Origin: Methanorbis rubei
GTDB taxonomy: Archaea; Halobacteriota; Methanomicrobia; Methanomicrobiales; Methanocorpusculaceae
NCBI RefSeq assembly: GCF_032714495.1
Contig: NZ_JAWDKB010000005.1
Span: forward strand, 1-64,000
DNA length: 64,000 bases
Reading direction: 5' to 3'
Numbering within the stretch: position 1 is the stretch's first letter; every line of letters starts with the position of its first letter. Both the position numbers and the translations under genes were made by a program. Positions 6,758 to 54,706 of the stretch are shown here, in pieces. The notes beneath the pieces were generated by a model. It had not been told where the DNA came from, ran no database searches, and saw only the letters and a program-made list of their open reading frames with translations.

Positions 6758-7374
6758 GTTTATCCGCAAAAATGAAAACCCCTGAGTTCTCTGAAGAGAA
6801 CGGCTCGATATTAATCGATGTACACATTGCCAGCATGGATCAGTTCTACAATTATCTGGATCCATCACCGGCTGATGAAAAAGATCTTGACGAGGACACG
6901 GAAACCTACATCCAGAACGCGGTCGAAGACCTGACTGCTGAGGAACGGAAGCGGGCGAAGATCGTTCTGTATCTCGGAGCAGATCTCTATCAAAATGTGA
7001 GTGTCCGGGAAAATATGGAACGGGCTGCGACGGCAAATTTTGCATATCGCCTGAAACATGAAAAGAGAAAGTACTCATATGCAATGGAACGGGGAAAACG
7101 CTACCTTGCCAGAGGCCTCGTCTTCCTTGTGATCTGCCTTGTGGTGAGCAGTGTTTTTACCCGCATTTTCTCGGAAAACGATATCAATCTCGCCCTTGCC
7201 CAGAGTTTTGTCATCATCGGATGGGTTGCCCTCTGGAAACCGGTGGAGTTCTATCTCTATGATCGGAAGGATATTCTGGATGAACTGGAGATCCTTGAGG
7301 TGCTCTCGGTAATGCCGGTGGAGACACGGAGATGGTATCAGGGTCTGGAGAATGAGACGCTGGTTCTGATGTAA
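6754..7374 (+). CDS. Hypothetical membrane protein, HypF-coupled
   Basis: A 206-residue protein not assigned to a family. The first 110 residues are acidic and soluble, with a charged helix rich in Glu, Arg and Lys (EDLTAEERKRAKIVLYLGAD). Two hydrophobic segments follow at about 120-140 and 147-165 (FLVICLVVSSVFTRIF and AQSFVIIGWVALW). A cytoplasmic tail ends the chain. The start overlaps the hypF stop by 4 bases. That argues for co-expression, but nothing in the sequence links it to hydrogenase maturation. Confidence 0.65.
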   Translation: MSLSAKMKTPEFSEENGSILIDVHIASMDQFYNYLDPSPADEKDLDEDTETYIQNAVEDLTAEERKRAKIVLYLGADLYQNVSVRENMERAATANFAYRLKHEKRKYSYAMERGKRYLARGLVFLVICLVVSSVFTRIFSENDINLALAQSFVIIGWVALWKPVEFYLYDRKDILDELEILEVLSVMPVETRRWYQGLENETLVLM

Positions 7375-7378
7375 TTTT

Positions 7379-7658
7379 TGAAACGCGAATCGCATGCCTT
7401 CGGCCTGCTCACCGCTTCGCGGAATAGCGCGAATAAAAAAATCGCCAATGACGATTTTTAAGGATTTGCTAATATTTAGATAGATCAATCTGTTTAAAAA
7501 AAACGCGAATAGCGCGAATAAAAAATCGCCAATGGCGATTTTTAAGAATTTACTAATATTTAGATAGATCAATCAATTTAAAGAAACACAGATATTTTTT
7601 TTCTTTTTTTTGAAAAATTGCCATTGGCGATTTTTTTATTCGCGCTATTCGCGTTTTT
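7379..7658. repeat. Inverted repeat, CGCGAAT/TCGCCAATGGCGA family, left arm duplicated
   Basis: The arm GAAACGCGAATAGCGCGAAT followed by AAAAAATCGCCAATGGCGATTTTT occurs at the left, and its complement at 7611-7658. The left arm plus about 60 bp of AT-rich interior is present twice in tandem (about 7380-7495 and 7500-7600), and the first copy is interrupted by a 31-bp insert. It lies between convergent genes and ends in T-runs, so it could serve as a two-way terminator. Sister copies lie near 16.8, 24.4 and 54.6 kb. Confidence 0.85.
7391..7421 (-). mobile_element. 31-bp micro-element with 4-bp target duplication
   Basis: A 31-bp block, CGCATGCCTTCGGCC...CGCTTCGCG, splits the arm of the surrounding repeat. 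The flanks are GAAT on both sides (7387-7390 and 7422-7425), while uninterrupted copies of the arm have GAAT once. Further copies are at 29502, 29746 and 35889. No gene for its movement is present in the window. Confidence 0.65.
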
Positions 7659-7741
7659 TTCTAAAAACGAAACCGTACCCCACCGAACACAACTCAGATA
7701 AATATTTCAAAACAGACTCAATTTTTTAGGAAAATATGGAT

Positions 7742-14741: not shown

Positions 14742-14813
14742 GCGTGATAGGTAGTTTTGGCAGAGAGAAAAGAAGTGTGTTTTCTTTGGGGGTTTTGCAT
14801 CCTCCCGCGTGAA

Positions 14814-14962
14814 CCGCCCACGGAAAATCAGAACACACGGAGCTGCACGGAAAAAATATCACGGAGCAGACGTGAACAGCACGGAATTTGAAAATAGTTC
14901 ATTATTATGGCATTCATTATTTTTCCGTGAAACTCCGTGTGTTCTGATTTTCCGTGGGCGGC
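14814..14962. repeat. Long inverted repeat, CCACGGA family
   Basis: The left arm CGCCCACGGAAAATCAGAAC runs on to ATCACGGAGCAGACGTGAAC; the right arm reads ATTTTTCCGTGAAACTCCG and ends in CCGTGGGCGG. It lies between the dtdA start and the end of the first acyltransferase gene (both minus strand), where it could form a terminator-like stem. Confidence 0.8.
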
Positions 14963-14969
14963 TCGCAAA

Positions 14970-15737: not shown

Positions 15738-15801
15738 GTTACTCCGTGCTATTTGGTTTTTGCTGATATATATTTTGAGATTGAAAAGTACGCCCGGAAA
15801 C

Positions 15802-16581: not shown

Positions 16582-16708
16582 TGCTTTGGAGTTGGTGCTT
16601 TCAGATAATCTCTTTTGTGTTTGAAGAGGTGTGATACCGCAAAAAAATTTAACCAGTTTCTTTCTGAAAAGGGAAATGGTTGAATAGTATATGGGAAAGA
16701 TAAATATC

Positions 16709-16862
16709 TGAAACGCGAATAGCGCGAATAAAAAATCGCCAATGGCGATTTTCAAAGAAGTGCTAAATTATTTCTTTTTAGATAAATTCACCTAAAAAAG
16801 TACAAAGAATTTTTTTTTGAAAATCGCCATTGGCGATTTTTATTCGCGCTATTCGCGTTTCA
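16709..16862. repeat. Inverted repeat, CGCGAAT/TCGCCAATGGCGA family
   Basis: This is the cleanest copy: 154 bp with arms of about 45 bp starting TGAAACGCGAATAGCGCGAA and ending in the complement. Each arm contains a nested palindrome around TCGCCAATGGCGA. The interior is AT-rich and ends in a T9 run. The right arm overlaps the last four codons and stop of echF. Confidence 0.9.
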
Positions 16863-17247
16863 AAACTTCATCCTCGGTCTCAGGATCCTTCTTCGGTTTC
16901 TCCGGCTTCACGTACGTAATCTCGTACGTCTCCACTCCCCGCTCATCAGGCCGGGCCGATGACGAATAGGCAGGATCAACAGACAGAGCACCAAACTTGC
17001 ACAACTCAGCGCACTGACCGCAGATAACACAGCGGAACAGATCAATCGTCCACAGCTTCGCCGCACGATCAACCGTAACCGCCTGGGACGGACAGCGTTT
17101 CATGCAAATCATGCAGGACGTGCACTTGGACGGATCGAACACCACATGACCGCGGGTGATATCAAAGCGCTTTGCAGGTTCGGCAGGAAACGTCGTCGTC
17201 ACTGGCTTATGCACAAACTGCTTCAGAATCGTTTTCAGCATTTTCAT
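16849..17247 (-). CDS. echF: Ech hydrogenase subunit F, 2x[4Fe-4S] ferredoxin-like
   Basis: A 132-residue iron-sulfur subunit. Two clusters are visible: CTSCMICMKRCP and CVICGQCAELC. EchF passes electrons between ferredoxin and the small subunit EchC and corresponds to NuoI of complex I. It is the last gene of the ech operon, 6 bp after echE. The final residues LKRE and the TAG stop are encoded by the arm of the inverted repeat, so the natural C-terminus seems to have been replaced by repeat sequence. Confidence 0.92.
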   Translation of the reverse strand: MKMLKTILKQFVHKPVTTTFPAEPAKRFDITRGHVVFDPSKCTSCMICMKRCPSQAVTVDRAAKLWTIDLFRCVICGQCAELCKFGALSVDPAYSSSARPDERGVETYEITYVKPEKPKKDPETEDEVLKRE

Positions 17248-23123: not shown

Positions 23124-23178
23124 AGTTGAGTGAGTGATGTGAGACGAGAAATATTTTCTCTCTATAAGTGGCCTCGCT

Positions 23179-23405
23179 TGGGGTAACCACGGAACACACT
23201 GAACACACGGAATGCCACGGAAAAAACACAGAATACCGCTTCGCTTACGGAAAACACGGAAAGACTAAGAGTAGGGGTATACGCATATATCATTTTTTTG
23301 AGATGTCCGCTTCCTTAGTCTTTCCGTGTTTTCCGTAAGCGAAGCGGTATTCTGTGTTTTTTCCGTGAAATTCCGTATGTTCAGTGTGTTCCGTGGTTGC
23401 CCCAA
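23179..23405. repeat. Long inverted repeat, CCACGGA family
   Basis: Arms of about 95 bp begin TTGGGGTAACCACGGAACAC and include ACAGAATACCGCTTCGCTTA; the right arm is a near-perfect complement. The loop is about 45 bp. Unlike most copies it lies between divergent genes, where it would separate two promoters instead of two gene ends. Confidence 0.9.
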
Positions 23406-23542
23406 ATGAGACCAAGGAGAGAGAAATTCCGTAAACGGAAATCATTATGAACAAAGATTTCGAATCCTGTGATATTTGATATCACAACAGTCCCGGTAGA
23501 CAAGAAGGCATAAGAACTGAAAAAACAAAGATACAATCAGTT

Positions 23543-24274: not shown

Positions 24275-24439
24275 TGAAACGCGAATCACACGAATAGCGC
24301 GAATAAAAAATCGCCAATGGCGATTTTTGAGAAAGTACTATGTAATTTATTTTAGATAGACACGTCCAGAGAAACACAAAAATTTCTTTTTTTGAAAAAT
24401 CGCCATTGGCGATTTTTTATTCGCGCTATTCGTGTTTCA
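24275..24439. repeat. Inverted repeat, CGCGAAT/TCGCCAATGGCGA family
   Basis: Arms run from TGAAACGCGAAT to the complement ATTCGTGTTTCA. The left arm carries a 9-bp insert (CACACGAAT). The AT-rich interior shares TTTAGATAGA and GAAACACA with the copy at 7.5 kb. It lies between two convergent genes. Confidence 0.88.
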
Positions 24440-24526
24440 AAAATTTATCCTGCCCACTCACTCAACAGTTCACAAAAAAAAGATTTGACCGTATTGGTCG
24501 CTGATCAGAGAACCCTTGCGGAAAAA

Positions 24527-29304: not shown

Positions 29305-29351
29305 TACTTTTTTTCATTTTGTGGATTTCCGTTTATGGGGAATTTTTATCT

Positions 29352-29624
29352 TTGGTTTCGCTTGGAGTAACCACGGAACACACGGAATTCCACGGAAAAA
29401 AACACAGAATACCGCTTCGCTTACGGAAAACACGGAAAGCCTAAGTGTACGGGTATTGGTATATGTCACCGTTTTGAGATGCCAACTTCCTTAGTCTTTC
29501 CCGCGAAGCGGTAAGCAGGCCGAAGGCATGCGTTCCGTGTTTTCCGTAAACGAAGCGGTATTCTGTGTTTTTTCCGTGGAATTCCGTGTGTTCAGTGTGT
29601 TCCGTGGTTGCCCCAAACAAAACC
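29352..29624. repeat. Long inverted repeat, CCACGGA family, interrupted
   Basis: The left arm begins TTGGTTTCGCTTGGAGTAAC and runs through CCACGGAACACACGG; the right arm ends TGGTTGCCCCAAACAAAACC. A 31-bp micro-element interrupts the right arm at 29502. The sequence before it (GGATTTCCGTTTATGGGG near 29322) is mirrored near 29875, so the whole 29.3-29.9 kb gap may be one composite palindrome. The ribB and HTH genes converge on it. Confidence 0.85.
29502..29532 (+). mobile_element. 31-bp micro-element with 4-bp target duplication
   Basis: The block CGCGAAGCGGTAAGCAGGCC... ending GGCATGCG sits between two TTCC copies (29498-29501 and 29533-29536). The intact counterpart near 23.3 kb has AGTCTTTCCGTG with TTCC once. 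Confidence 0.65.
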
Positions 29625-29745
29625 AAGGACAGAAAATCCCTTTTTCCTTATACTATTTCATACCGCGTAAGTCCTATTTGAATAAGATTTACGCAATGCA
29701 ATTTTTTGAAAAATAATTTTTCTCGGAAATTTTTCCGTGCAGTCC

Positions 29746-29776
29746 CGCAAAGTGGTGAGCAGGCCGAAGGCATGCG
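29746..29776 (+). mobile_element. 31-bp micro-element copy
   Basis: The core CGCAAAGTGGTGAGCAGGCC... ends GGCATGCG. The flanks are AGTCC and AATCC, where an intact relative near 35.98 kb has ATTCC once. This fits a 5-bp duplication with one change on each side. Confidence 0.55.
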
Positions 29777-29799
29777 AATCCGGCACCGCAGGCATTCAC

Positions 29800-29895
29800 C
29801 GTGAATTCAGTGAAGCTCTGTGTACTCGGTGTACTCCGTGGTTACTCCAAGTGAGACGACGTACAGAAGATCCCAAAAACGGAAATCTATAAAAA
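29800..29895. repeat. Right arm of a CCACGGA-family inverted repeat
   Basis: TGTACTCCGTGGTTACTCCA followed by ACGGAAATC mirrors the left arm near 29.32-29.40 kb and resembles the right arm near 36.0 kb. It closes the intergenic repeat cluster before the HTH gene. Confidence 0.65.
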
Positions 29896-33124: not shown

Positions 33125-33481
33125 AGTAGGAGTTACGCGGTGTGATTCTGTGAAGTGACGTACGACCTCGGAAGAGTTATTTTTCAACGTGGTACTGCTT
33201 TGAGATTTTTTGAAACACGAACCACACGAAAAATCACGAAATAGTTAACTCACGAAATATTTCCAAAAACACGAAATTAGTTCTTGGATTCAAATTCAAT
33301 CACTGCATAACTCGGAAGAGACAGGAAAAAACAACGTGTTGCAGCCCAAAATTACTCAGCATCATAGCTTGTACCAAAACTCCTATTTCGTGTTTTTCGC
33401 ACTATTTCGTGAGTTAACTATTTCGTGATTTTTCGTGTGGTTCGTGTTTGAAAATATTCGCCACCGCATAACTCCTACCAG
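33125..33481. repeat. Nested inverted repeat, AGTTACGCGGTG family
   Basis: The outer arms are AGTAGGAGTTACGCGGTG and the complement CACCGCATAACTCCTACC. Nested inside are longer arms starting GAAACACGAACCACACGAAA with CACGAAATAGTTAACTCACG, mirrored near 33400-33455. It fills most of the 520-bp gap between the convergent ygiQ and antiporter genes; nothing else was found there. Confidence 0.85.
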
Positions 33482-35661: not shown

Positions 35662-35810
35662 ATATCCCAGAATATCTACCCCTGTTTGTGGTATATATTA
35701 TCCCTGTGATATGATAAACATGCCTGATGGGGATTACTTTGTTCGTAAAGTTTGAAAAGTTGGTTGATTTTGGATTTCCGTTTCTTGGGATTTTTATTTT
35801 TGGTCTCGTT

Positions 35811-36060
35811 TGAAGTAACCACGGAATGCACGGAGTACACTGAGCATCACAGAAAAAAATGCACGGAGAACGCCTGCGGCGCCGGATTCGCATGCCTTCG
35901 GCCTGCTCACCGCTTTGCGGGAATGCACTGAAAGATTTCCGAGATAATTTATTCTCTCAAAAATGAAAAAAATATTCCGTGCATTCCGGCGCCGCAGGCG
36001 TTCTCCGTGCATTTTTTTCTGTGAAGCTCCGTGTACTCTGTGCATTCCGTGGTTACTCCA
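35811..36060. repeat. Long inverted repeat, CCACGGA family
   Basis: Arms start near AGTAACCACGGAATGCACGG and continue through AACGCCTGCGGCGCCGGA; the right arm is the complement. The left arm is interrupted by a micro-element at 35889. It lies between the divergent aIF1A and GntR genes, and sequence before it (GGATTTCCGTTTCTTGGG) extends the similarity to the 29.3 kb copy. Confidence 0.85.
35889..35919 (-). mobile_element. 31-bp micro-element copy
   Basis: The core CGCATGCCTTCGGCC... ends GCTTTGCG. Flanks are GGATT and GGAAT; the intact opposite arm reads GGAAT once, which fits a 5-bp duplication with one change. Confidence 0.6.
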
Positions 36061-36085
36061 AGCACAGCTTGAGCGAAAGAGTTAA

Positions 36086-39029: not shown

Positions 39030-41039
39030 TTAAGTTCTTCTTCTGAGGAAGATTCCCACCGCAAACAGTCCGGTCAGCATACCAAATACCGGGGCAGGCG
39101 CTTGAGTCATCGTTGGTGGAATTTCGGCGGATGAAGTCACTGATGCAGTTGTGTTCTGTGTAGAGGAGGAGGTTGGTGCGTTGGTCGGTCTCACTGTTTC
39201 GATCTGCGTTACTTCTGAGGTGGGTTTTTCGGTCGCAGATAAAGTTACAGTGCTGACAGGTATCCATTTTGCATACAGCGTGATGTCACCAGATACTGCG
39301 TCTTCACCAAACATCCACGGAATAGTACACGCCGCATCCTTGTACCAACCACCAAAATTGTAGCCGTCTTTCGTTGGTACAGCTGGTTGACCAATTTTGT
39401 CACCATAGGAGAGGCCGGTCGCAGGCTGCACGAAACTTCCACCTTGAGTGTCGAAAAGAACGCGGAAAGCATTGTCCATGTTACCGTCAGAGGAGGAAGA
39501 GGAGGTGGGCGGTACGGGTGGAACCGGAGGTTTAGGGTTCAGATAGTTTGCGTCGCCGGGAACAGGAGTTTTCTGCCAAGAGAGAACCGGCAGTTGATAG
39601 TTGTTGTTGCCGGAGTTCATCTTCCAGACATGTTCAAAATTCCATCCGAGAGTGTCAGAGAAGAAGCTCTGTTTACCCCAGAACTCTGCGGTGGAAACTC
39701 CGGTTCCGTTGTATGAGCTTCCTTTGATAGGAGTTCCCGAATCATCGGTATATCCGAGGTTGTCCCATCCATACGTATTCGTGAGTTGTTGATTATCATC
39801 CAGTACATACCCAATAAATCGGCCAACATTATCTTCCCCCTGTGTTACAGAGATGGAACTCACGAGTACGGCACAACTGCGTATCGTTGTTACAGTAGAT
39901 GAATCACTACGGATCTGCCCAAGAAATCCGCCAACATTCGTCATGGGATCACCGATTACGCTAATTTTACCTACTGCATAACAATTCTCAAGAGTTGATC
40001 CTTTAGTAGTACCAACAAATCCGCCAATGTTTGTCTCTCCACTCCCCCACGTTTTGGGTACAATAATCTCCACGTTGCTGTAACAGTCTGTGATTTTGCT
40101 ATTCACGCGTTCTTGACCCACAAACCCCCCAACGACTTTCCCCGTACCTTGAACAGTTCCGGCAACGCTACAGTTGTCGATCTGACCCTCACAATACCCT
40201 ACGAAACCACCAAGTCCGTTCAGCTCGTTCTGAGAGACGATAGTCACTTCTATAGCAGCACTTTCGGTAATAACAGATTTTGAGCCAACAGACCCAACAA
40301 ACCCTCCAGCGTATTGCGCCATATTATTGCCAGTACCCGCATTCATACCAACAGTTATTTTGGAGGAGGTACAGTTCTCAATAATACTATTTCCACTTAG
40401 TACTCCGACAACACTGCCACATATTGACCATGCCTGATTACTTGTTATCTGACCATCGGAGATTGTGATATTTTCAATTTGGGTATCCACAACGTATCCC
40501 ACGAGACCTCCTGCAGATTGTGATGTCGTGTCGGACCGTGATATAGACACACTAATTTTCGAGACAGCCAAATTTCTAATTGTAGCCCCATTCGTATAAC
40601 CAAACAGCCCCATATCATATTCTACAGGATTCATGAGATTTTTGATGGTATGATACCGGCCATCGAAGGTCCCGTTGAAAGATCTCGAATTAGATCCGAT
40701 CGCCGTCCAATTGTATGCACCCAGATCAATGTCTTCCATGAGTATGACGGTTTTTCCGGAGAAATCAGATTTACTACTATTTTTTGAGACTTTTTCGGAA
40801 AACGCGGCAAGACTTGCTGCATCATAGATGTAGAATGTGTCGCCACCACTGTAGGTGTCATACCACGATGCGTTGAAGTTTCCTGCATCCGTCCAATTTT
40901 CCGCACTCACAGCACCTGTGATAAGCACAGAACAAAAAACTACTACGAAAACCGCCAACACGAACCCGTGACGCAGTCTTCTTTCAGTCGTAGAACTCTT
41001 CGTTCCTCGAACCATAAATCGCATAATATCAGCACACAT
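39030..41039 (-). CDS. Secreted surface protein 1: GLUG repeats, InlB-type repeat, CTERM-like anchor
   Basis: About 669 residues. A signal peptide (RLRHGFVLAVFVVVFCSVLI ending VSA) is followed by at least six GLUG-type repeats (GGLVGYV, GGFVGSV, GGFVGYC, GGFVGQE, GGFVGTT, GGFLGQI) that make a beta-rich rod. One Listeria-Bacteroides InlB repeat follows (DTQGGSFVQPATGLSYGD to ITLYAKW), then a Thr/Ser stalk and a C-terminal TQAPAPVFGML helix ending RRRT, like archaeosortase substrates. I start at ATG 41039, where all three proteins of the locus share MCADIMRFMV. Adhesion or S-layer association is inferred. Confidence 0.8.
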   Translation of the reverse strand: MCADIMRFMVRGTKSSTTERRLRHGFVLAVFVVVFCSVLITGAVSAENWTDAGNFNASWYDTYSGGDTFYIYDAASLAAFSEKVSKNSSKSDFSGKTVILMEDIDLGAYNWTAIGSNSRSFNGTFDGRYHTIKNLMNPVEYDMGLFGYTNGATIRNLAVSKISVSISRSDTTSQSAGGLVGYVVDTQIENITISDGQITSNQAWSICGSVVGVLSGNSIIENCTSSKITVGMNAGTGNNMAQYAGGFVGSVGSKSVITESAAIEVTIVSQNELNGLGGFVGYCEGQIDNCSVAGTVQGTGKVVGGFVGQERVNSKITDCYSNVEIIVPKTWGSGETNIGGFVGTTKGSTLENCYAVGKISVIGDPMTNVGGFLGQIRSDSSTVTTIRSCAVLVSSISVTQGEDNVGRFIGYVLDDNQQLTNTYGWDNLGYTDDSGTPIKGSSYNGTGVSTAEFWGKQSFFSDTLGWNFEHVWKMNSGNNNYQLPVLSWQKTPVPGDANYLNPKPPVPPVPPTSSSSSDGNMDNAFRVLFDTQGGSFVQPATGLSYGDKIGQPAVPTKDGYNFGGWYKDAACTIPWMFGEDAVSGDITLYAKWIPVSTVTLSATEKPTSEVTQIETVRPTNAPTSSSTQNTTASVTSSAEIPPTMTQAPAPVFGMLTGLFAVGIFLRRRT

Positions 41040-41240
41040 CCGGGAAACAGGAGCGTTCGTCAGAGAAAACGATCCAAATATCCTGAGATAGTCCCTATAT
41101 GGGATTCGCAGCCATATCAACCTATCCAATAGAGAAAAAATATATCAGAAATATAAGAAATACCATTGAAAAAACACTTTGAAAAAATAATTTATTCTCT
41201 CCATCTCAGGAGAGAATTGCTGCCACTATACCAAGAGCAG

Positions 41241-42720
41241 TTACTCTTTTCTTCTGAGGAAAAATCCCGCCGCAAACAGCCCAACAAGTAATCCTGCAAT
41301 CGGAGCAGGCGCTTGAGTCATCGTCGGAGAAACTCCAGCGGATGAAGTAGTCGCCGCAGAAGTAACCGCAGTCGCGGACGAAGTCTGCTTCTGAGTCGCC
41401 GAAGCTGTCGGCTGAGTGATCGCGGCACTTTGCTGCTGCGTTGTCGCCCCAGTGCTACCGGAGATCCACTTCGCATACAGCGTCATGTCACCCGGAAGAG
41501 CATCCTCCTTAAAGATCCAGAGAATGTTCATCGCCTCGTCCTTGTACCAGCCACCAAAGACATAGCCGTCTTTCGTTGGCGTGACCGGTTCCGGCACACG
41601 GTCACCATAGGAGAGACCGGTTGCCGGTTGCACGAAGCTGCCTCCTTTGGCATCGAAGAGGACGCGGAAGGCGTTCTCCATGTTGCCGTCAGAGGAGGAG
41701 GAGACAGGCTGCGGTCCCGGGTTTGGACCCGGATTCGCGCCGGTATATGCTGCAAGAACGATTGCAGAGAACTCATTTCCTTTTACGGTGATGGTGACCG
41801 GATCTGTGGGGTCTGGGCTCATATAGACGATGTCAAGCATGTCTACTTTGCCGTTTTTCACGTGGAATGCCTTGATGTTGTTTCGACCAATTGCGTCAAC
41901 CCACTCTTTGGGAACCGTGAAGTTCACCAGAATACCGCCGGCAGTGATGTTGCTGTTGATCTCATCCAGATTATGGTTGGCTGGAGCTGAAGCAGTAATC
42001 ATGGTGGCGGCAGTGTAGCCCTGCGAGAGGATGAGGAGTGACACATCAGCGTCGTAGTCAGGGCTGATAATCGGCAGAATTGACGTCACGTTTCCGAGAG
42101 AGAGGTTCAACTGATAGGAAGCTTTCTTCGGCACTTTTGCTCCTCCTTCGGGCGGGGTGACAGCCACATCAGGTGGATAGATCACGCCGACGGCAGTCAC
42201 GTTTCCTTCCACAGTCTTATCGGTCATCTGTGGTTTTTCATTGAAGGTGACGACCATCGTTGCACCGGAGTTTTTGTCTTCGATGATGGCTTTGTGGTCT
42301 TCTGTGGGATCGGCTTCGATGAAGTTACCGGTCGACACAGTGATTGAGGTGTTGCCATTCGCTTCCTTTATCGGTTCCTGAATAGGTTCTGGACTCGTCA
42401 CGTTATAGACCGTGATGAGAACGGTCTTCTGAACTCCGTCTGCTGATACAGTGAGGTTGGCGGTACCGGTTTTCACGGCATTGTAGGTAAATGAGGAGCC
42501 GGTCGTCGCAGAAGAGGAGGTGATAACACCACTTCCATCAGGAGTCCATGTGAAGGTTCCGGAACTATCGTCGCTGAATTTTGCATGAAGGGTCCCTTGT
42601 GCACCAGCAACATTGGCTGCTACCGAAAAATTTCCGGTAACAATAATGGTTTTTGTGGGGGCCGCTCCTACAGTGACAAGCGGATAGAGGTCAGCGACCG
42701 GAAGCCCTGCGGCTTTTGCT
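41241..42720 (-). repeat. Direct repeat, copy A (3' third of surface protein 2)
   Basis: About 1.4-1.5 kb is shared in the same orientation with 45526-46990, with long identical stretches such as CTTTTACGGTGATGGTGACC. The boundaries are approximate. Confidence 0.8.
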
Positions 42721-45152
42721 TCAGCGGGGGTGGCATAGGTCAGGTAACCGGTGGGATTCTTTTTACCGGAGGACCAGTCACCCCACCAATTGCCGGCTTT
42801 GACATCACCGACGGCGATGTGAGCTTTGTCTCCGGTGCCGTAAGTAATCGTTCCGGACGGAATTGCATTCCATTTCAGATCTGCACTATTCGTGGGCAGA
42901 GTAACACCCGGCGTCCCAAAGCCGGTGAATGCATTGTTGTAAATGGAACCCTTCAGAGTAACCTCACCAATAGAGTTACTATCAACATAGATTACGGAAC
43001 TTTTCCCATCACCGGTGAAGATGTTGTCATGAACATTCAGATTCAGGGTTGCGTTGACATAGTTCCCGATGAAGATCAGAGAATCATTACCAGCTGAAGA
43101 AGTTCCTTTCGAGAGATCAATCGTATTTCCAAGAATATTAATGGAATCTGGGGTCTGTCCGCTGATGTGCTTTACTTTGTAGATGCCAATACCTATCTTC
43201 CTATATACATCTGAATCAGTACTGATGATGTTTCCCTCAATTGTTGCCTGGTCGAGAACAGCAGTCTTCGTATCATCACAATAGAGCATGACACCAATGC
43301 TTCCCAAACCTCCTCCTGATTTTCCCAGATAAATGGTGTTATTTTTCACGAGTATGGGGCATGCCGAAGACCTATCTTTCGGGAAAATAACATCAATACC
43401 AATTGAGTTATGTAATGTGGAGGGACCAGTCCAGAGAGTGTTGTTGTATACCACGCTGTTCGCACAGTCTTGGAATAGTATAGTATCCACTTTGGTTTCT
43501 GCAGGGTTAACTTTCATTTTCGACAGATCGATTATACTGTTTGAGAGGGTGGAATTGGGACTGTATACGAAATATACATCGTACAGAGTGGGACCAGTGT
43601 GTTCGGTAGTTTCGACAGACTGCAAGTTCAATTTGTCGAGAGTTACGTTATTGCTATTAGCTACCCAGACGTTTGCCATGTTCATGCCGGTCCATGGTTG
43701 GGGGCTTGCCAAGATTATTTTCTGATAGTCACCGTCAAGATTGACATAGCTGACCCCATTTATTTTTATAGACGTTAGGGTGAAAGGAGTAGTAATTTGG
43801 TAATTTTTTGGTGAGTTGACATCCCCAGAAGCAGTTTTATCAAGAGTCAAATTCCAGCCAGCATTGTTGCCGGTCCACGTAACTCCCGTGACATTTGTGC
43901 CCGGAATCAAAGCTATCGTCGTGCTCAGGCTGTCTTTATCAATCATTCCGTTTTGGTCCAGAGCAGTGTAGTAGGGAAGTACAGATGCTCTGTTCGGATA
44001 TGCAGTTATTGTGCCACCAAAGATGCCATCTCCGGTGGGATTTTTCATAGTTCCATCTATCATACCCCAGAAGTTATATTGAGCATCAAATGAAGTAGGA
44101 TTATATCCCTTAGAAAAGCAGATCAATGTAGAACCGAGCAGGACACTATTCTGAATCGATACACCACCACTTGTATTGCGCAAAGCTATGGTACCCTCAG
44201 TATAACTAGAATTAGTACATACAAGAGTACTGTTAACGATCGTAACGTTTTGGGATGTACGAACTGCATATTTAGTGACATTAATCTCCGAATCGGAAAT
44301 AGTGACGTTTTTTCCTTGACCATCCGCAATATTAATACCTCCACTTTCCATTTCAGAGATCTTAGAGGATCTAACAGTCAGTCCTTCCCCATAAAAAGAA
44401 ATACCATTATAGCCTCCACTAAAAGTGGAAGAAATAACGGTAACGTTTCGAACCCCAGAACCTGCAGGTGATAAAATTCCATATGTTAACTTTCCAGAAC
44501 CTGTGTAGTTACCCAGAAAAATACAATTTTCAACGAGAACATTGTGTCCATAACGAGTCGTACCAATACCAGTGATATCTAGGCCACTTGATCCACCAAA
44601 AAGAATCGCACCTGCTTCTCCATGCTGATATACACTTTGGGTATCAGCACTTGAAATCGTCATTGAGTAATCAGGTGCAGAGAGATTGAAGACAATGTTT
44701 TTGAAAGTTAAAATTTCCGGTCCAAAGTCTTTGTCAGAACGGCCATTAATGAAAATCTGACTTTGCACATCTACTTTGCCAAGCTCCTCACCCACAAGGA
44801 TCAGATTTTTCTTGTCGGTTTGATTTACCATGATGTAATTATATCCACCAGTAGTGAAGGTGTACTTACCTTCTAACATGTGTATAGTATACGTTGCAGG
44901 AAGAGAGGGGGCATCAGTTTCAATCTTCGTCAGAACATTCTGAAGATACGTAGGGTTATCTTTAGTTCCATCCCCAGTACCACCCGGACTAACCCAATAC
45001 TCTACCGCACCATCAGCACTCACAGCTCCCGCCATCAGCACGCTACAAAAAATCAGTACCAAAACCGCCAACACGAACCCGTGTCGCAGTTTCCTTCCAG
45101 TCGTAGAACATTTCGTTCCTTGAACCATAAATCGCATAATATCAGCACACAT
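41241..45152 (-). CDS. Secreted surface protein 2: right-handed beta-helix, InlB-type repeat, CTERM-like anchor
   Basis: About 1303 residues. The signal peptide is nearly the same as in its neighbours. Two long Asn-rich parallel beta-helix blocks follow (NVLVENCIFLGNYTGSGKL and IYLGKSGGGLGSIGVMLY are typical rungs), then a Big-like domain (GNFSVAANVAG to KTVLITVYN), a domain ending VTITVKGNEFSAIVLAAYTG, an InlB repeat, a Ser/Thr/Gln stalk and the TQAPAPIAGLL anchor ending RRKE. From about residue 830 on it is nearly identical to surface protein 3. Many N-glycosylation sequons are present. Confidence 0.8.
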   Translation of the reverse strand: MCADIMRFMVQGTKCSTTGRKLRHGFVLAVLVLIFCSVLMAGAVSADGAVEYWVSPGGTGDGTKDNPTYLQNVLTKIETDAPSLPATYTIHMLEGKYTFTTGGYNYIMVNQTDKKNLILVGEELGKVDVQSQIFINGRSDKDFGPEILTFKNIVFNLSAPDYSMTISSADTQSVYQHGEAGAILFGGSSGLDITGIGTTRYGHNVLVENCIFLGNYTGSGKLTYGILSPAGSGVRNVTVISSTFSGGYNGISFYGEGLTVRSSKISEMESGGINIADGQGKNVTISDSEINVTKYAVRTSQNVTIVNSTLVCTNSSYTEGTIALRNTSGGVSIQNSVLLGSTLICFSKGYNPTSFDAQYNFWGMIDGTMKNPTGDGIFGGTITAYPNRASVLPYYTALDQNGMIDKDSLSTTIALIPGTNVTGVTWTGNNAGWNLTLDKTASGDVNSPKNYQITTPFTLTSIKINGVSYVNLDGDYQKIILASPQPWTGMNMANVWVANSNNVTLDKLNLQSVETTEHTGPTLYDVYFVYSPNSTLSNSIIDLSKMKVNPAETKVDTILFQDCANSVVYNNTLWTGPSTLHNSIGIDVIFPKDRSSACPILVKNNTIYLGKSGGGLGSIGVMLYCDDTKTAVLDQATIEGNIISTDSDVYRKIGIGIYKVKHISGQTPDSINILGNTIDLSKGTSSAGNDSLIFIGNYVNATLNLNVHDNIFTGDGKSSVIYVDSNSIGEVTLKGSIYNNAFTGFGTPGVTLPTNSADLKWNAIPSGTITYGTGDKAHIAVGDVKAGNWWGDWSSGKKNPTGYLTYATPAEAKAAGLPVADLYPLVTVGAAPTKTIIVTGNFSVAANVAGAQGTLHAKFSDDSSGTFTWTPDGSGVITSSSATTGSSFTYNAVKTGTANLTVSADGVQKTVLITVYNVTSPEPIQEPIKEANGNTSITVSTGNFIEADPTEDHKAIIEDKNSGATMVVTFNEKPQMTDKTVEGNVTAVGVIYPPDVAVTPPEGGAKVPKKASYQLNLSLGNVTSILPIISPDYDADVSLLILSQGYTAATMITASAPANHNLDEINSNITAGGILVNFTVPKEWVDAIGRNNIKAFHVKNGKVDMLDIVYMSPDPTDPVTITVKGNEFSAIVLAAYTGANPGPNPGPQPVSSSSDGNMENAFRVLFDAKGGSFVQPATGLSYGDRVPEPVTPTKDGYVFGGWYKDEAMNILWIFKEDALPGDMTLYAKWISGSTGATTQQQSAAITQPTASATQKQTSSATAVTSAATTSSAGVSPTMTQAPAPIAGLLVGLFAAGFFLRRKE

Positions 45153-45297
45153 CAGGGAAACAGGAACGCTCGTCAGAGAAAACGATCCAAATATCCCGAG
45201 ATAGCCCCTATATAGGACTCGCAGCCATATCAACCTATCCAATAGAGAAAAAATAGATCAAAATTATAAGAAATACCAAAGAAATACCATTAAAAAT

Positions 45298-45513
45298 GTC
45301 ATGGATAGGAGTTACGCGGTGGTGAATATTTTGTATTATGAAAAATGTTGATCGGAATAGTGATGAGTGGAAATGACGAGGAAAAAAAGAACCGCATTTG
45401 TGTGGATTTGCGATTTTTTCTCACGAGGCCACACTCACCACTAACCAGATTACTTTTTTAGAAAAAAAGAACGAGGATCTTTTTTGCAATATCACACCGC
45501 GTAACTCCTATTG
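45298..45513. repeat. Inverted repeat, AGTTACGCGGTG family
   Basis: The left arm is GGATAGGAGTTACGCGGTGG and the right arm is ACACCGCGTAACTCCTAT. About 170 bp lie between the arms. It fills the gap between surface proteins 2 and 3 and shares its arm with the repeat at 33.1 kb. Confidence 0.8.
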
Positions 45514-45525
45514 AAAAAAAATAAT

Positions 45526-46990
45526 TTATTCTCTTCGTCTGAGGAAGAGACCAGCAGCCAGTGCACCGAACAGAAGTCCGGCAATTGGAGCAGGAGCCTG
45601 AGTCATCGTTGGAGAGACTCCGGCTGAAGAACTCGTCGCCGCAGAAGCCACCGCAGTCGCGGACGAAGTCTGCTGCTGAGTCGCCGAAGCTGTCGGCTGA
45701 GTGATCGCGGCACTCTGCTGCTGAGTTACCGCGCCAGTGTTACCCGATATCCACTTCGCATACAGCGTCATGTCGCCAGGAAGAGCGTCTTCCTTGAAGA
45801 TCCAGAGAATGTTCATCGCCTCATCCTTGTACCAGCCGCCAAAGACATAGCCGTCTTTCGTTGGCGTGACCGGTTCCGGCACACGGTCACCATAGGAGAG
45901 ACCGGTTGCCGGTTGCACGAAGCTGCCTCCTTTGGCATCGAAGAGGACGCGGAAGGAGTTCTCCATGTTGCCGTCAGAGGAGGAGGAGACAGGCTGCGGT
46001 CCCGGGTTTGGACCCGGATTCGCGCCGGTATATGCTGCAAGAACGATTGCAGAGAACTCATTTCCTTTTACGGTGATGGTGACCGGATCTGTGGGGTCTG
46101 GGCTCATGTAGACGATGTCAAGCATGTCTATTTTGCCGTTTTTCACGTGGAATGCCTTGATGTTGTTTCGACCAATCGTGTCAACCCATTCTTTAGGAAC
46201 CGTGAAGTTCACCAGAATACCGCCGGTAGTGATGTTGCTGTTGATCTCATCCAGATTATGGTTGGCTGGAGCTGAAGCAGTAATCATGGTGGCGGCAGTG
46301 TAGCCCTGCGAGAGGATGAGGAGTGACACATCAGCGTCGTAGTCAGGGCTGATAATCGGCAGAACTGACGTCACGTTGCCGAGAGAGAGGTTCAACTGAT
46401 AGGAAGCTTTCTTCGGCACTTTTGTTCCTTCCGGCGGGATGACAGCCACATCAGGTGGATAGACCACGCCAACGGCAGTCACATTTCCTTGTACAGTCGT
46501 ACCGGGTGTTTGCGGTTCGTTGAAGATAACGATCATCGTTGTGCCGGAGCTTTTGTCCTCGATGATGGCTTTGTGGGTGTCGGTGGGATCCACATTGATG
46601 GGATTACTGTTTGATGAGGTGATTGAGGTGTTGCCGTTCGGTTCCTTTACCGGTTCGTTGATAGGTAATTCAGGTTCGGTTATGTTATAGACCGTGATGA
46701 GAACGGTCTTCTGAACTCCGTCTGCTGATACAGTGAGGTTGGCGGTACCGATTCCCTTGGGAGTATAGATTATTGATGCACCTGATGCTGGGGAAGGGAG
46801 GGTAATAATATCAGAGTCCGTTGTGCTCCAGCTGAATTGTCCGGAACTACCGTCACTGAACGTTGCATTGAGAACTCCATTTGCACCAGTGGCTGCTACC
46901 GAAAAGTTTCCGGTAACAATAATGGTTTTTGTGGGGGCCGCTCCTACCTTGACAAGCGGATAGAGGTCAGCGACCGGAAGTCCTGCGGCT
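45526..46990 (-). repeat. Direct repeat, copy B (3' third of surface protein 3)
   Basis: Partner of the repeat at 41241-42720. The same orientation and high identity make deletion or gene conversion between the copies likely. Confidence 0.8.
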
Positions 46991-49317
46991 TTTTCGGTCA
47001 GGGACAGGTAACCGTTTGGATCATTATAGTTTTCAGACCAACCTACCCACCAATTGCCGGCGAGATATTTCTGATCAGGGGCGATCTTTTTGTGGGGGCC
47101 GAATGATGTTGTCGGATCAGTGTCCCATTTCAAATTGTTCGTGTATGAAGCCCCTGATGCATTTCCAAAGCCCAGATTGGTGTTGCTGAACTTGTTGTTG
47201 TAGATCGAACCAGAAAGAGTAACGATATCCAGAGGTTTACTACTGCTTTTATTATCCACATAGATGATACTCGAACGACCGGTATTCGCAGTAAAAGTAT
47301 TATCATAAATGGTCAGATTGAAGGTTGCATTAACATTAGATCCGATGTAAAGCAGAGAATCATTATTACTTGTGGATGTTCCTCTGGTGAGATCGATGGT
47401 ATTACCGATAATGGCAATCGCCTGTTCGTCGCCATATTTCTGTGTAGCATTCACTTTGTAGATACCAATACCGATTTTACGGGGAGTATTAGTGGTATCT
47501 GTACTGAAGATGGTGTTGTTCACAATATGAGATGGATTGATCGATCCCTGAGTACTGCCAGTGTCATAAGCCCCATAAAGCCTGACACCCATGCTACCGA
47601 GACCAGTTGCGCCGGAATTTCCCAGATTTATCGTGTTTCCTTCTACTGTCAGGGAGTGTGGAGAGGAGTCACTGAAAAAGGTATCAACACCTATCGAGTT
47701 GTAGTTCGATTTTCCCGTCGTGAGGGTATTGTTGATGGCGTGAAGATCGTTGCCCTGCTCGAAGTAAATGTTATTCAACTGCCCAGAGGGGCTGCCCTGA
47801 TTCAAATTGGCCAAATTAATCACCGAATTTGAAATAGTGCCATTTTTGACCGACTTGAATCCAACGGCAGAAAATCTACTCCCAACATCACGTGTCGTAC
47901 CACTATTAACCACAACAGAGAGCTTGTCCAGAGTGATATTCTGAAGAACAGCAGTACCCTCGACGAGAATGGCATCAGCATTGGAGCGATCTACTGCATC
48001 CTTGGTAAGCGTGATCGTCTTGTAATCACCATCAACAACAACATCACTCGCGGTGACAGTCATCTTATTGAGATTGAAGCCCTGCGTCAGTTTGTAGTTG
48101 CCGGCCTGAGATATGGTAAGCGTGTAACCACTGGTGTCGCCGGTCCACGTAACGCCCGGAATATTCTTTCCCGGATTTAAGGGAAGATATCCGTCTTCCA
48201 CATACCCGATAATGTCACCACCAAAATACGTTGCCAAAACGAAAGAGTTCGCGATTTCGTAGTTGATGTTGATATTAATGAGAGGGACGGAGGAAAATGT
48301 AGTTGTATTAGCGCTATTGTTTAATGCAAGATAAACAGTATGTGCAGATTCGTTTTTGAACGTGTTTCCGGTAATTGTAGGATACCTATTTTCTGGAAGG
48401 GTGACTGTGGAATCCTTTGCACCTTTCGGTTCAAACACAACACCATTAGACACAGTGGAGCCAAATGTGTTGTCTGAAATGATGTTATTATAAGAGGGGG
48501 CCTGAACATCATATCCCATATCACGGACATGAACAATGGCCCCTGGAGAGCCGCCGTTAACCGACAGACGAGTATCAAGCGCACTTCGATAAATATTGAT
48601 CGTATTTCCAGAGATGTTGTAATTGTCAAAACTATGAACAGCAGTTTGGAAGTAACCATTCACGGTATTATTAATAAATGTGACCCGACCGGGAACAACA
48701 CCATCATACTGATTCACAACAACACCCGAGTGAGTATTGGGGCCGTTAGAAGTGATTGTGCAATTAACAATAGTGTAATTATACTGAGGTAGGGAACCCG
48801 TGGCCGTTATGACTACACCACCTGTCTGTCCATTACCCCCGATAGTTACATTACAAGAATCCATTGTGATTTCATCGCCGACGTGGGATCCAATTAATTT
48901 CATGATTATCGGAACGTTTGTTGAGTTCTCATATTTTAAATCCAAATTCCGCAATGTAAACGAGGAAGGAGGACCTATCTCGAATAGATAACCTGAACCA
49001 GTCATATTAAGAAGAGGCTTATTGTCAATAGTTTCACCTTCAATGACAAGATCACGATTAATCGTAATCTTACTGGTTATCGGATAGTAACCCGCTTGGA
49101 CAATAATCTTCGTAACAGCCGAGTCATTGATTGCATCCGTAAAATTCTGAACGGTATCAACCGTAACCGTCTTCTCCCCCGCACTCACAGCTCCCGCCAT
49201 CAGCACGCTACAAAAAACAATCACGAGAACCGCCAACACGAACCCGTGTCGCAGCCTCGTTCCAGCCATGGAACTGTTCGTTCCCTGAACCATAAATCGC
49301 ATAATATCAGCACACAT
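45526..49317 (-). CDS. Secreted surface protein 3: right-handed beta-helix, InlB-type repeat, CTERM-like anchor
   Basis: About 1263 residues with the same architecture as protein 2: a signal peptide (RLRHGFVLAVLVIVFCSVLM to VSA), beta-helix blocks with rungs like NYTIVNCTITSNGPNTHSGV, the Big-like and VTITVKGNEFSAIVLAAYTG domains, an InlB repeat, a stalk and TQAPAPIAGLL with RRRE. The helix region differs from protein 2 except for short blocks, while the last 430 residues nearly match. I start at ATG 49317 (MCADIMRFMV). Confidence 0.8.
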   Translation of the reverse strand: MCADIMRFMVQGTNSSMAGTRLRHGFVLAVLVIVFCSVLMAGAVSAGEKTVTVDTVQNFTDAINDSAVTKIIVQAGYYPITSKITINRDLVIEGETIDNKPLLNMTGSGYLFEIGPPSSFTLRNLDLKYENSTNVPIIMKLIGSHVGDEITMDSCNVTIGGNGQTGGVVITATGSLPQYNYTIVNCTITSNGPNTHSGVVVNQYDGVVPGRVTFINNTVNGYFQTAVHSFDNYNISGNTINIYRSALDTRLSVNGGSPGAIVHVRDMGYDVQAPSYNNIISDNTFGSTVSNGVVFEPKGAKDSTVTLPENRYPTITGNTFKNESAHTVYLALNNSANTTTFSSVPLINININYEIANSFVLATYFGGDIIGYVEDGYLPLNPGKNIPGVTWTGDTSGYTLTISQAGNYKLTQGFNLNKMTVTASDVVVDGDYKTITLTKDAVDRSNADAILVEGTAVLQNITLDKLSVVVNSGTTRDVGSRFSAVGFKSVKNGTISNSVINLANLNQGSPSGQLNNIYFEQGNDLHAINNTLTTGKSNYNSIGVDTFFSDSSPHSLTVEGNTINLGNSGATGLGSMGVRLYGAYDTGSTQGSINPSHIVNNTIFSTDTTNTPRKIGIGIYKVNATQKYGDEQAIAIIGNTIDLTRGTSTSNNDSLLYIGSNVNATFNLTIYDNTFTANTGRSSIIYVDNKSSSKPLDIVTLSGSIYNNKFSNTNLGFGNASGASYTNNLKWDTDPTTSFGPHKKIAPDQKYLAGNWWVGWSENYNDPNGYLSLTEKAAGLPVADLYPLVKVGAAPTKTIIVTGNFSVAATGANGVLNATFSDGSSGQFSWSTTDSDIITLPSPASGASIIYTPKGIGTANLTVSADGVQKTVLITVYNITEPELPINEPVKEPNGNTSITSSNSNPINVDPTDTHKAIIEDKSSGTTMIVIFNEPQTPGTTVQGNVTAVGVVYPPDVAVIPPEGTKVPKKASYQLNLSLGNVTSVLPIISPDYDADVSLLILSQGYTAATMITASAPANHNLDEINSNITTGGILVNFTVPKEWVDTIGRNNIKAFHVKNGKIDMLDIVYMSPDPTDPVTITVKGNEFSAIVLAAYTGANPGPNPGPQPVSSSSDGNMENSFRVLFDAKGGSFVQPATGLSYGDRVPEPVTPTKDGYVFGGWYKDEAMNILWIFKEDALPGDMTLYAKWISGNTGAVTQQQSAAITQPTASATQQQTSSATAVASAATSSSAGVSPTMTQAPAPIAGLLFGALAAGLFLRRRE

Positions 49318-49507
49318 TCCTGAAAGCAGGACATCAATAACAGAGAGACATCCAGACACCCAAGAGATAACCATACTATTAGCTCATCTACCTATATCAA
49401 CATGTCTGATCAGCAAAAAAAAATCAAAAAAAAATAAAAATATCCGCAAAACCAAAAAGAAATACCTAGGGAATACCTCACAAAAATAAAACTCAATCGA
49501 GTGAACA

Positions 49508-54525: not shown

Positions 54526-54706
54526 TGAAACGCGAACTCCGAAACGCGAATAGCGCGAATAAAAAATCGCCAATGGCGATTTTTAGAAACTTATTAAAAT
54601 TATTTTTTTAACAGATTGCATTATTCCAAAAATATAGATAATTTCTTTTTTTTTGAAAAATCGCCATTGGCGATTTTTTTATTCGCGTTTTAAAAATCGC
54701 GTTTCA
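54526..54706. repeat. Inverted repeat, CGCGAAT/TCGCCAATGGCGA family
   Basis: Begins TGAAACGCGAACTCCGAAAC, with the outer arm end repeated, and contains the AATCGCCAATGGCGATT palindrome in each arm. Ends AATCGCGTTTCA. It lies between two convergent genes, 10 bp after the sepS stop. Confidence 0.88.

Follow-up and report, generated by a model that had tools for sequence, protein, structure and literature searches.

The window, that is, the whole stretch of 64,000 nucleotides analysed here, belongs to the genome that we call G000, a draft assembly of 1.83 Mb in 15 contigs and 96% complete. In the window are roughly ten long palindromes, all imperfect and drawn from four families or more, many of them between convergent genes (657-889, 7381-7660, 14811-14964, 16692-16870, 23159-23424, 24282-24456, 29324-29851, 33205-33457, 35810-36061 and 54538-54687). 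On the minus strand at 39030-49374 lie three large neighbouring ORFs of 699, 1333 and 1282 amino acids. They have long direct repeats of 60-95% identity in common, as in tandemly duplicated surface proteins, and the length of this region differs from that in the sister species genome, G004.

A 31-bp double-hairpin element recurs within the palindromes. Copy 1, on the plus strand at 7391-7421 (CGCATGCCTTCGGCCTGCTCACCGCTTCGCG), matches the consensus exactly. It is preceded by CGCGAAT and followed by GAATAGCG, with GAAT duplicated at its left (7387-7390) and right (7422-7425). The host is a palindromic intergenic repeat of family A at 7381-7660 (AAACGCGAATAGCGCGAATAAAAAATCGCC...), which lies beyond the 3′ end of an ORF ending at 7374 and includes an 84-bp internal duplication of its left arm; the intact version of the site, ACGCGAATAGCGCGAAT, is found at about 7501. 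Copy 2 is on the minus strand at 29502-29532, where CGCGAAGCGGTAAGCAGGCCGAAGGCATGCG stands between CTTTCC and TTCCGTG. Here the duplicated word is TTCC (29498-29501 and 29533-29536), or GGAA in the orientation of the element, and the host is a palindromic repeat at 29359-29625 whose outer part is of family C (AACCACGGAACACACGG). The related empty site, at about 23314-23330, is in an intact paralogous palindrome (23159-23424). Along the homologous stretch at 23221-23425 the offset to the repeat at 29.4-29.6 kb is 6176 to the left of the block and 6211 to its right, a gain of 35 that equals 31 + 4 bp. The sequence-only reading of this DNA had reported one 31-bp block in opposite orientations at these two sites, flanked by GAAT/GAAT and TTCC/TTCC, each word being single in intact repeats elsewhere in the window, and all of this is borne out. 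However, the block that it called the same is alike at 30/31 bases, the sole difference being C in copy 1 and T in copy 2 at block position 20. Moreover, that reading did not include copy 3 (29746-29776, minus strand, two mismatches, flank type GATT..GGAC) or copy 4 (35889-35919, plus strand, one mismatch, flank type GATT..GGAA), both of which are without an exact duplication. The 18-bp core of the block has 4 matches in the window, with 0.07 expected.

Other small hairpin inserts, for example ACCGCTTCGCTTACGG and GAACGCCTGCGGCGCC, occur at window positions 29397-29445 and 35870-35888 and at G000 loci, and they resemble additional families of micro-elements hosted by these palindromes. The palindromes contain compound blocks too, for instance CGCTTCGCACGCCGTTCCGTCGTGCTCACTGCTTCGCAGCTTCGCG.

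Copies, fold and long form of the element

A search of G000 at up to 3 mismatches returned 95 copies of the block, compared with 0 for a reversed-pattern control, which rules out a chance repeat. The G004 genome, whose DNA is about 90% identical to that of G000, has 66 copies at up to 2 mismatches; both assemblies are drafts, about 95-96% complete. Among the remaining genomes of the genus, Methanocorpusculum (25 in total), three have one or two copies and the others zero. Exact matches to the core in GTDB genome_contigs came from Methanocorpusculum, together with scattered single matches, and those inspected outside Methanocorpusculum consist of the core alone, without the ends of the block. 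The single match in IMG/VR was rejected, as it sits in apparent coding sequence. No known RNA family was recognised by Rfam, which gave chance-level matches alone, below gathering scores and arising from large palindromes.

The consensus of the block reads CGCATGCC TTC GGCCTGCT(C/T)AC CGC TTC GCG. The short internal hairpins mentioned in the sequence-only reading are two mini-hairpins, H1 and H2, which together make up the block, and H2 carries compensated changes. H1 (GCA-T-GCC/GGC-C-TGC) has a 3-nt loop, and its positions 2-4 and 6-8 pair with 12-14 and 16-18 around one mismatch. In H2, (C)CGC/GCG(G), positions 23-25 pair with 29-31 across a 3-nt loop, and C22 pairs with the first flanking G. 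This two-hairpin fold is predicted for both strands, as DNA and as RNA. Sequence variation is concentrated in the H1 loop. Among 54 distinct sequences, any of the four letters can occur at position 10 in the loop (T 37, G 9, A 6, C 2), whilst its neighbours are mostly kept (T9 in 53/54, C11 in 43/54), a pattern that can be read, for the complementary strand, as a G-N-A triloop. The H1 loop of one copy, L085, is inverted from TTC to GAA. The stems change in a compensated manner, with G6-C14 becoming A-T, C23-G31 becoming T-A and G24-C30 becoming A-T. In total, the short form has 13 compensated double changes against a mean of 3.5 and a maximum of 9 in 2000 shuffles; since the copies are related and the shuffles ignore their kinship, the covariation is inflated and this comparison is not a clean probability.

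A long form of 78 bp has ends identical to those of the short form, and in place of the H1 loop it carries 47 extra bp that form two further hairpins. There are 8 such copies in G000 and 20 in G004, with targets and duplications as for the short form. H2 compensates here also (C-G to U-A in 5 sequences), whilst compensation within the long form is slight in H1 and in both added hairpins. Folded as RNA, the long form is strongly structured (z -3.5); a cloverleaf as a proven RNA was found to be unsupported, as RNAalifold preferred another fold. A covariance model of the long form identified a diverged copy in a third genome of the genus, G022 (65/78 identical, flanks TGAA/GGAA), and weaker traces in G022 and G016, and among 199 genomes of the order it gave no match outside this genus. 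Most simply, the short form would have arisen from the long one when the 47 bp lying between a pair of TTC repeats were deleted. The two forms meet at one orthologous site, which is long in G000 (C2:221442) and short in G004 (C1:36165).

Targets and recent precise insertion in sister species

All listed copies in G000 and G004 sit in long intergenic repeats that are palindromic and belong to a few families (family A, ACGCGAATAGCGCGAATAAAAAATCGCC; family B, CCCACGGAAAAACGGAACACACGG; family C, AACCACGGAATGCACGG), and the orientation of the block relative to the palindrome arm is constant. Exact 4-bp duplications flank 43 of the 100 copies collected in G000 and 22 of the 36 collected in G004. A preference for ATTC and TTCC had been suspected from the two window sites, and it extends to every exact duplication in both genomes, each of which is either GAAT or GGAA when read in the CGCATG orientation. 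Identity between the flanks never reaches 5 bp, and the duplicated word is preceded by C, with one C-to-T exception in G000. The target motif of insertions, inside the palindromes, is CG(A/G)A(A/T). Coincidental duplications were rejected as an explanation: distance and register peak at 35 bp, there are two different duplicates, and empty orthologues exist. Partial and compound blocks were found at L025, L072, L066 and L081.

Copies lacking flanking duplications had been named in the sequence-only reading as evidence against insertion. Such copies are indeed common (57/100 in G000 and 14/36 in G004), but this does not extend to the duplicated sites. The non-duplicated copies fall into a small number of left-flank types that recur among them (GATT, AAAT, GTAT and GAGA) and resemble the products of copying of the block together with its flank, and therefore they do not refute insertion where the duplications are exact.

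We compared G000 and G004 across three syntenic contig pairs, with about 267 kb aligned at 88-91% identity. This yielded eight orthologous filled/empty sites, four per direction and involving both forms, at which the empty allele is continuous across the junction; orthology at most of the eight is confirmed by unique sequence on the outer side. Those filled in G000 only are C5:7391 (copy 1 of the window), C5:117405, C5:117718 and C2:256735. Those filled in G004 only are two sites on C6, one of them long, as well as C9:71500 (long) and C9:81383, making two long and two short. In the palindrome at window position 7391 the short form sits in the left arm in G000 and the long form in the right arm in G004. 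No donor-type replacement is seen in the flanks at C5:117405, C9:71500 and C6 85433, which follow the orthologous empty allele right to the junction, whereas at C5:117718 the insertion came with a change of flank from AAGCGGAA to AAACGAGA. C5:117405 and C5:117718 are the two arms of one palindrome. They carry different block subtypes and both are empty in G004, so that conversion from one arm to the other is not what happened here. Taken together, the eight sites show recent precise insertion since the sister species split. Clean empty sites in a relative are what the sequence-only reading had looked to for a test, and its transposition-like event with an exact 4-bp duplication is thereby supported, including at window position 7391.

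Whole palindromes also differ between the sister species at shared intergenic sites, and turnover is thus rapid in the host repeats as well. Palindromes present in G004 only correspond to window positions 15788 and 58446, and the palindrome at 16692 is of family A in one species against family B in the other.

Mode of spread and relation to known small repeats

We favour, and consider reasonably probable, an account in which the block is a non-coding mobile micro-element, inserted by an enzyme with a 4-bp duplication and then probably spread further by copying of block plus flank. New insertions would be in a single orientation, at CG(A/G)A(A/T) within palindromes, and would duplicate GAAT or GGAA. 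An enzyme acting in trans would open the target with a 4-nt stagger, the folded element would be joined to it and the gap would be filled in. Insertion of this kind would have produced the founders and probably many of the duplicated sites as well. Thereafter, much of the spread would probably be homology- or microhomology-guided copying of the block and some flank between palindromes, by gene conversion or template switching. Duplications at identical boundaries, in two sequences and with flanks matching the empty orthologue, point to true insertion. In 130 of 136 copies the base at block position 20 can be predicted from the last one of the left flank, and flank types GAGA, GATT and GTAT each occur largely with one block subtype. 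This tracking of flank by subtype, with the flank change at 117718, suggests that later spread probably copies flanks too, and the shared left flank, down to about 12 bp, favours template switching over recombination of the classical kind. We therefore infer a mix of two spreading modes, although over half of the G000 copies lack an exact duplication, which counts against the favoured account, and with two duplication sequences only, as few as two founding insertions could explain all of the exact ones. More tentatively, the 31-bp DNA may move as a folded single strand handled by an archaeal enzyme that cuts with a 4-nt stagger at CG(A/G)A(A/T) in palindromes; it would be too small for ordinary transposase end sites, would derive from its 78-bp relative and would be the first such case in archaea.

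The main rival account, which we regard as rather unlikely, dispenses with continuing insertion: one or two ancient events would have been followed by ectopic gene conversion or template switching alone, the duplications being inherited from the founders. It draws on the almost perfect agreement of block subtype with flank type (130/136), the non-duplicated GAGA, GATT and GTAT flanks common to many loci, the flank replaced along with the insertion at C5:117718, and the location of every copy in the two carriers in repeats with matching flanks. However, family A sites in first position share about 12 bp of left flank (TGAAACGCGAAT) and then enter unique sequence, which is short for homologous recombination, and at C5:117405, C9:71500 and C6 85433 the flanks agree with the empty allele as far as the junction. 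Moreover, two different duplications at identical block boundaries require at least two true insertions. Precise deletion reverses the direction: the palindromes would have had the block as a module ancestrally, and slippage between the 4-bp repeats would produce the empty alleles. Short repeats around a hairpin are a classical substrate for slippage, and at the eight sites gain is not polarised against loss by any outgroup that has these palindromes. Loss could in principle have occurred there but is by far the less economical reading: eight precise losses in two lineages would be needed, both arms of one palindrome included, the block is nearly absent from the other 23 genomes of the genus, and one module occupies several different positions in unrelated palindrome families. 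We thus consider deletion very improbable, and we infer that the direction was one of gain.

The profiles searched bear on two further accounts. Mobilisation as RNA, with reverse transcription of the element at nicks in the target DNA, is a route proposed for some small dispersed repeats (SDRs) and GC clusters, and here it is in our view improbable. The strong RNA structure of the long form, the compensated changes and a rise in copy number that fits copy-and-paste are in its favour, but no RVT_1 reverse transcriptase (PF00078) was detected in G000 or G004, drafts that are each ~95% complete, whereas six genomes of the genus without the copy burst have one. Furthermore, the H1 loop, with T9 and C11 kept and position 10 free, fits a GNA triloop of the other strand as well as it does an RNA loop. 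Integration of fragments of about 31 bp by a Cas1-Cas2-like or casposase-like enzyme seems extremely improbable. The size is close to that of CRISPR spacers and Cas1 is present in G000, but Cas1 is found in 25/25 genomes of the genus, element-free ones included, the insert is a single fixed sequence where spacers would vary, and only 4 bp are duplicated instead of an entire CRISPR repeat. The sequence-only reading had proposed a Tnp1/REP-associated or a Cas1-like enzyme. Neither proposal found support: the Y1 transposase profile (Y1_Tnp, PF01797) had no match in the 25 genus genomes, although positive controls gave matches, and Cas1, being in all 25 whether carriers or not, does not track the element and is uninformative. 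DDE_Tnp_1 has one decayed copy in G000 and two matches in G004, and was rejected as the mover because G000 has the decayed copy alone. No mobilising enzyme was therefore identified in a search that covered the Y1_Tnp, RVT_1, Cas1 and DDE_Tnp_1 profiles; with both drafts near 95% complete, enzyme absence is provisional.

To our knowledge, mobile elements of 20-80 bp without genes or real terminal repeats come from cyanobacteria and organelle genomes only. SDR1-8, which are small dispersed repeats found in Nostoc and its relatives and attributed to Elhai et al. 2008 (Genome Res 18:1484), are reportedly 21-27 nt long. They are said to have in common with the 31-bp block its size class and hairpins with compensated changes, and reportedly also lodging in other repeats, nesting, long variants, a narrow clade and recent mobility. 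We know of no enzyme that moves them. The block differs in its archaeal host, its two hairpins, its exact 4-bp duplications of two fixed targets and its long form of 78 bp, in which the ends are unchanged; we claim no sequence relation. Yeast mitochondrial GC clusters (GC42; PMC4478555) have short terminal direct repeats, AG or ACT. Along with the double-hairpin elements of fungal mitochondria, they resemble the block in being palindromic, 30-50 bp long and polymorphic for filled and empty sites, and GC clusters also show merging and shuffling, putative co-conversion of flanks and no settled mechanism (PMC4478555). Unlike them, the block resides on an archaeal chromosome rather than mtDNA and makes 4-bp duplications, and no intron-type reverse transcriptase was found in the G000 and G004 carriers. 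The sequence-only reading had remarked that 31 bp is far too small for known insertion sequences or most MITEs, but this does not place the block below all known elements, as cyanobacterial SDRs and mitochondrial GC clusters and double-hairpin elements match it in size.

REP/REPIN elements, whose mobility depends on RAYT (PMC3116915), are, like the block, short, hairpin-forming, intergenic, non-autonomous and present in many copies. Identity with them was rejected on the defining enzyme, Y1/RAYT (PF01797) being found in 0/25 genomes of the genus. REPs, as far as we know, make no 4-bp duplications. Prokaryotic MITEs (reviewed in PMC10969869) are likewise non-coding and intergenic, with a target duplication and an origin as an internally deleted derivative of a longer form, but the block is 31 bp long and its terminal inverted repeat is only ~3 bp (CGC...GCG). 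Its ends, CGCATGCC and, as reverse complement, CGCGAAGC, have CGC at the tip alone in common, and identity with MITEs was rejected on this ground. The block agrees with very small mobile repeats in copy number and size, compensated hairpins, presence/absence at orthologues and lodging in repeats. In the way it works it resembles cyanobacterial SDRs and yeast mitochondrial GC clusters. It is among the smallest mobile DNA known and apparently new for archaea, no archaeal case having been found in the literature surveyed, of which coverage was partial. How gene-free elements of 20-80 bp move is a long-standing question, to which an archaeal case is now added. It brings a target motif together with exact duplications of the target, a longer relative whose ends are identical, and sister genomes filled and empty both ways, and therefore transposition, reverse transcription and gene conversion can be tested against one another. 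If the folded-strand reading were true, few mobile elements that insert precisely would be as small as the block, and it would be the first such in archaea.

Lastly, two further features were noted on contig C5 of G000. A stretch of ~17.8 kb (G000:C5:134287-152057) is missing at the syntenic place in G004 and is a possible integrated element. The 16-mer AGTAGTAGTAGTAGTA occurs 37 times on the same contig, presumably as one or more trinucleotide repeat tracts.
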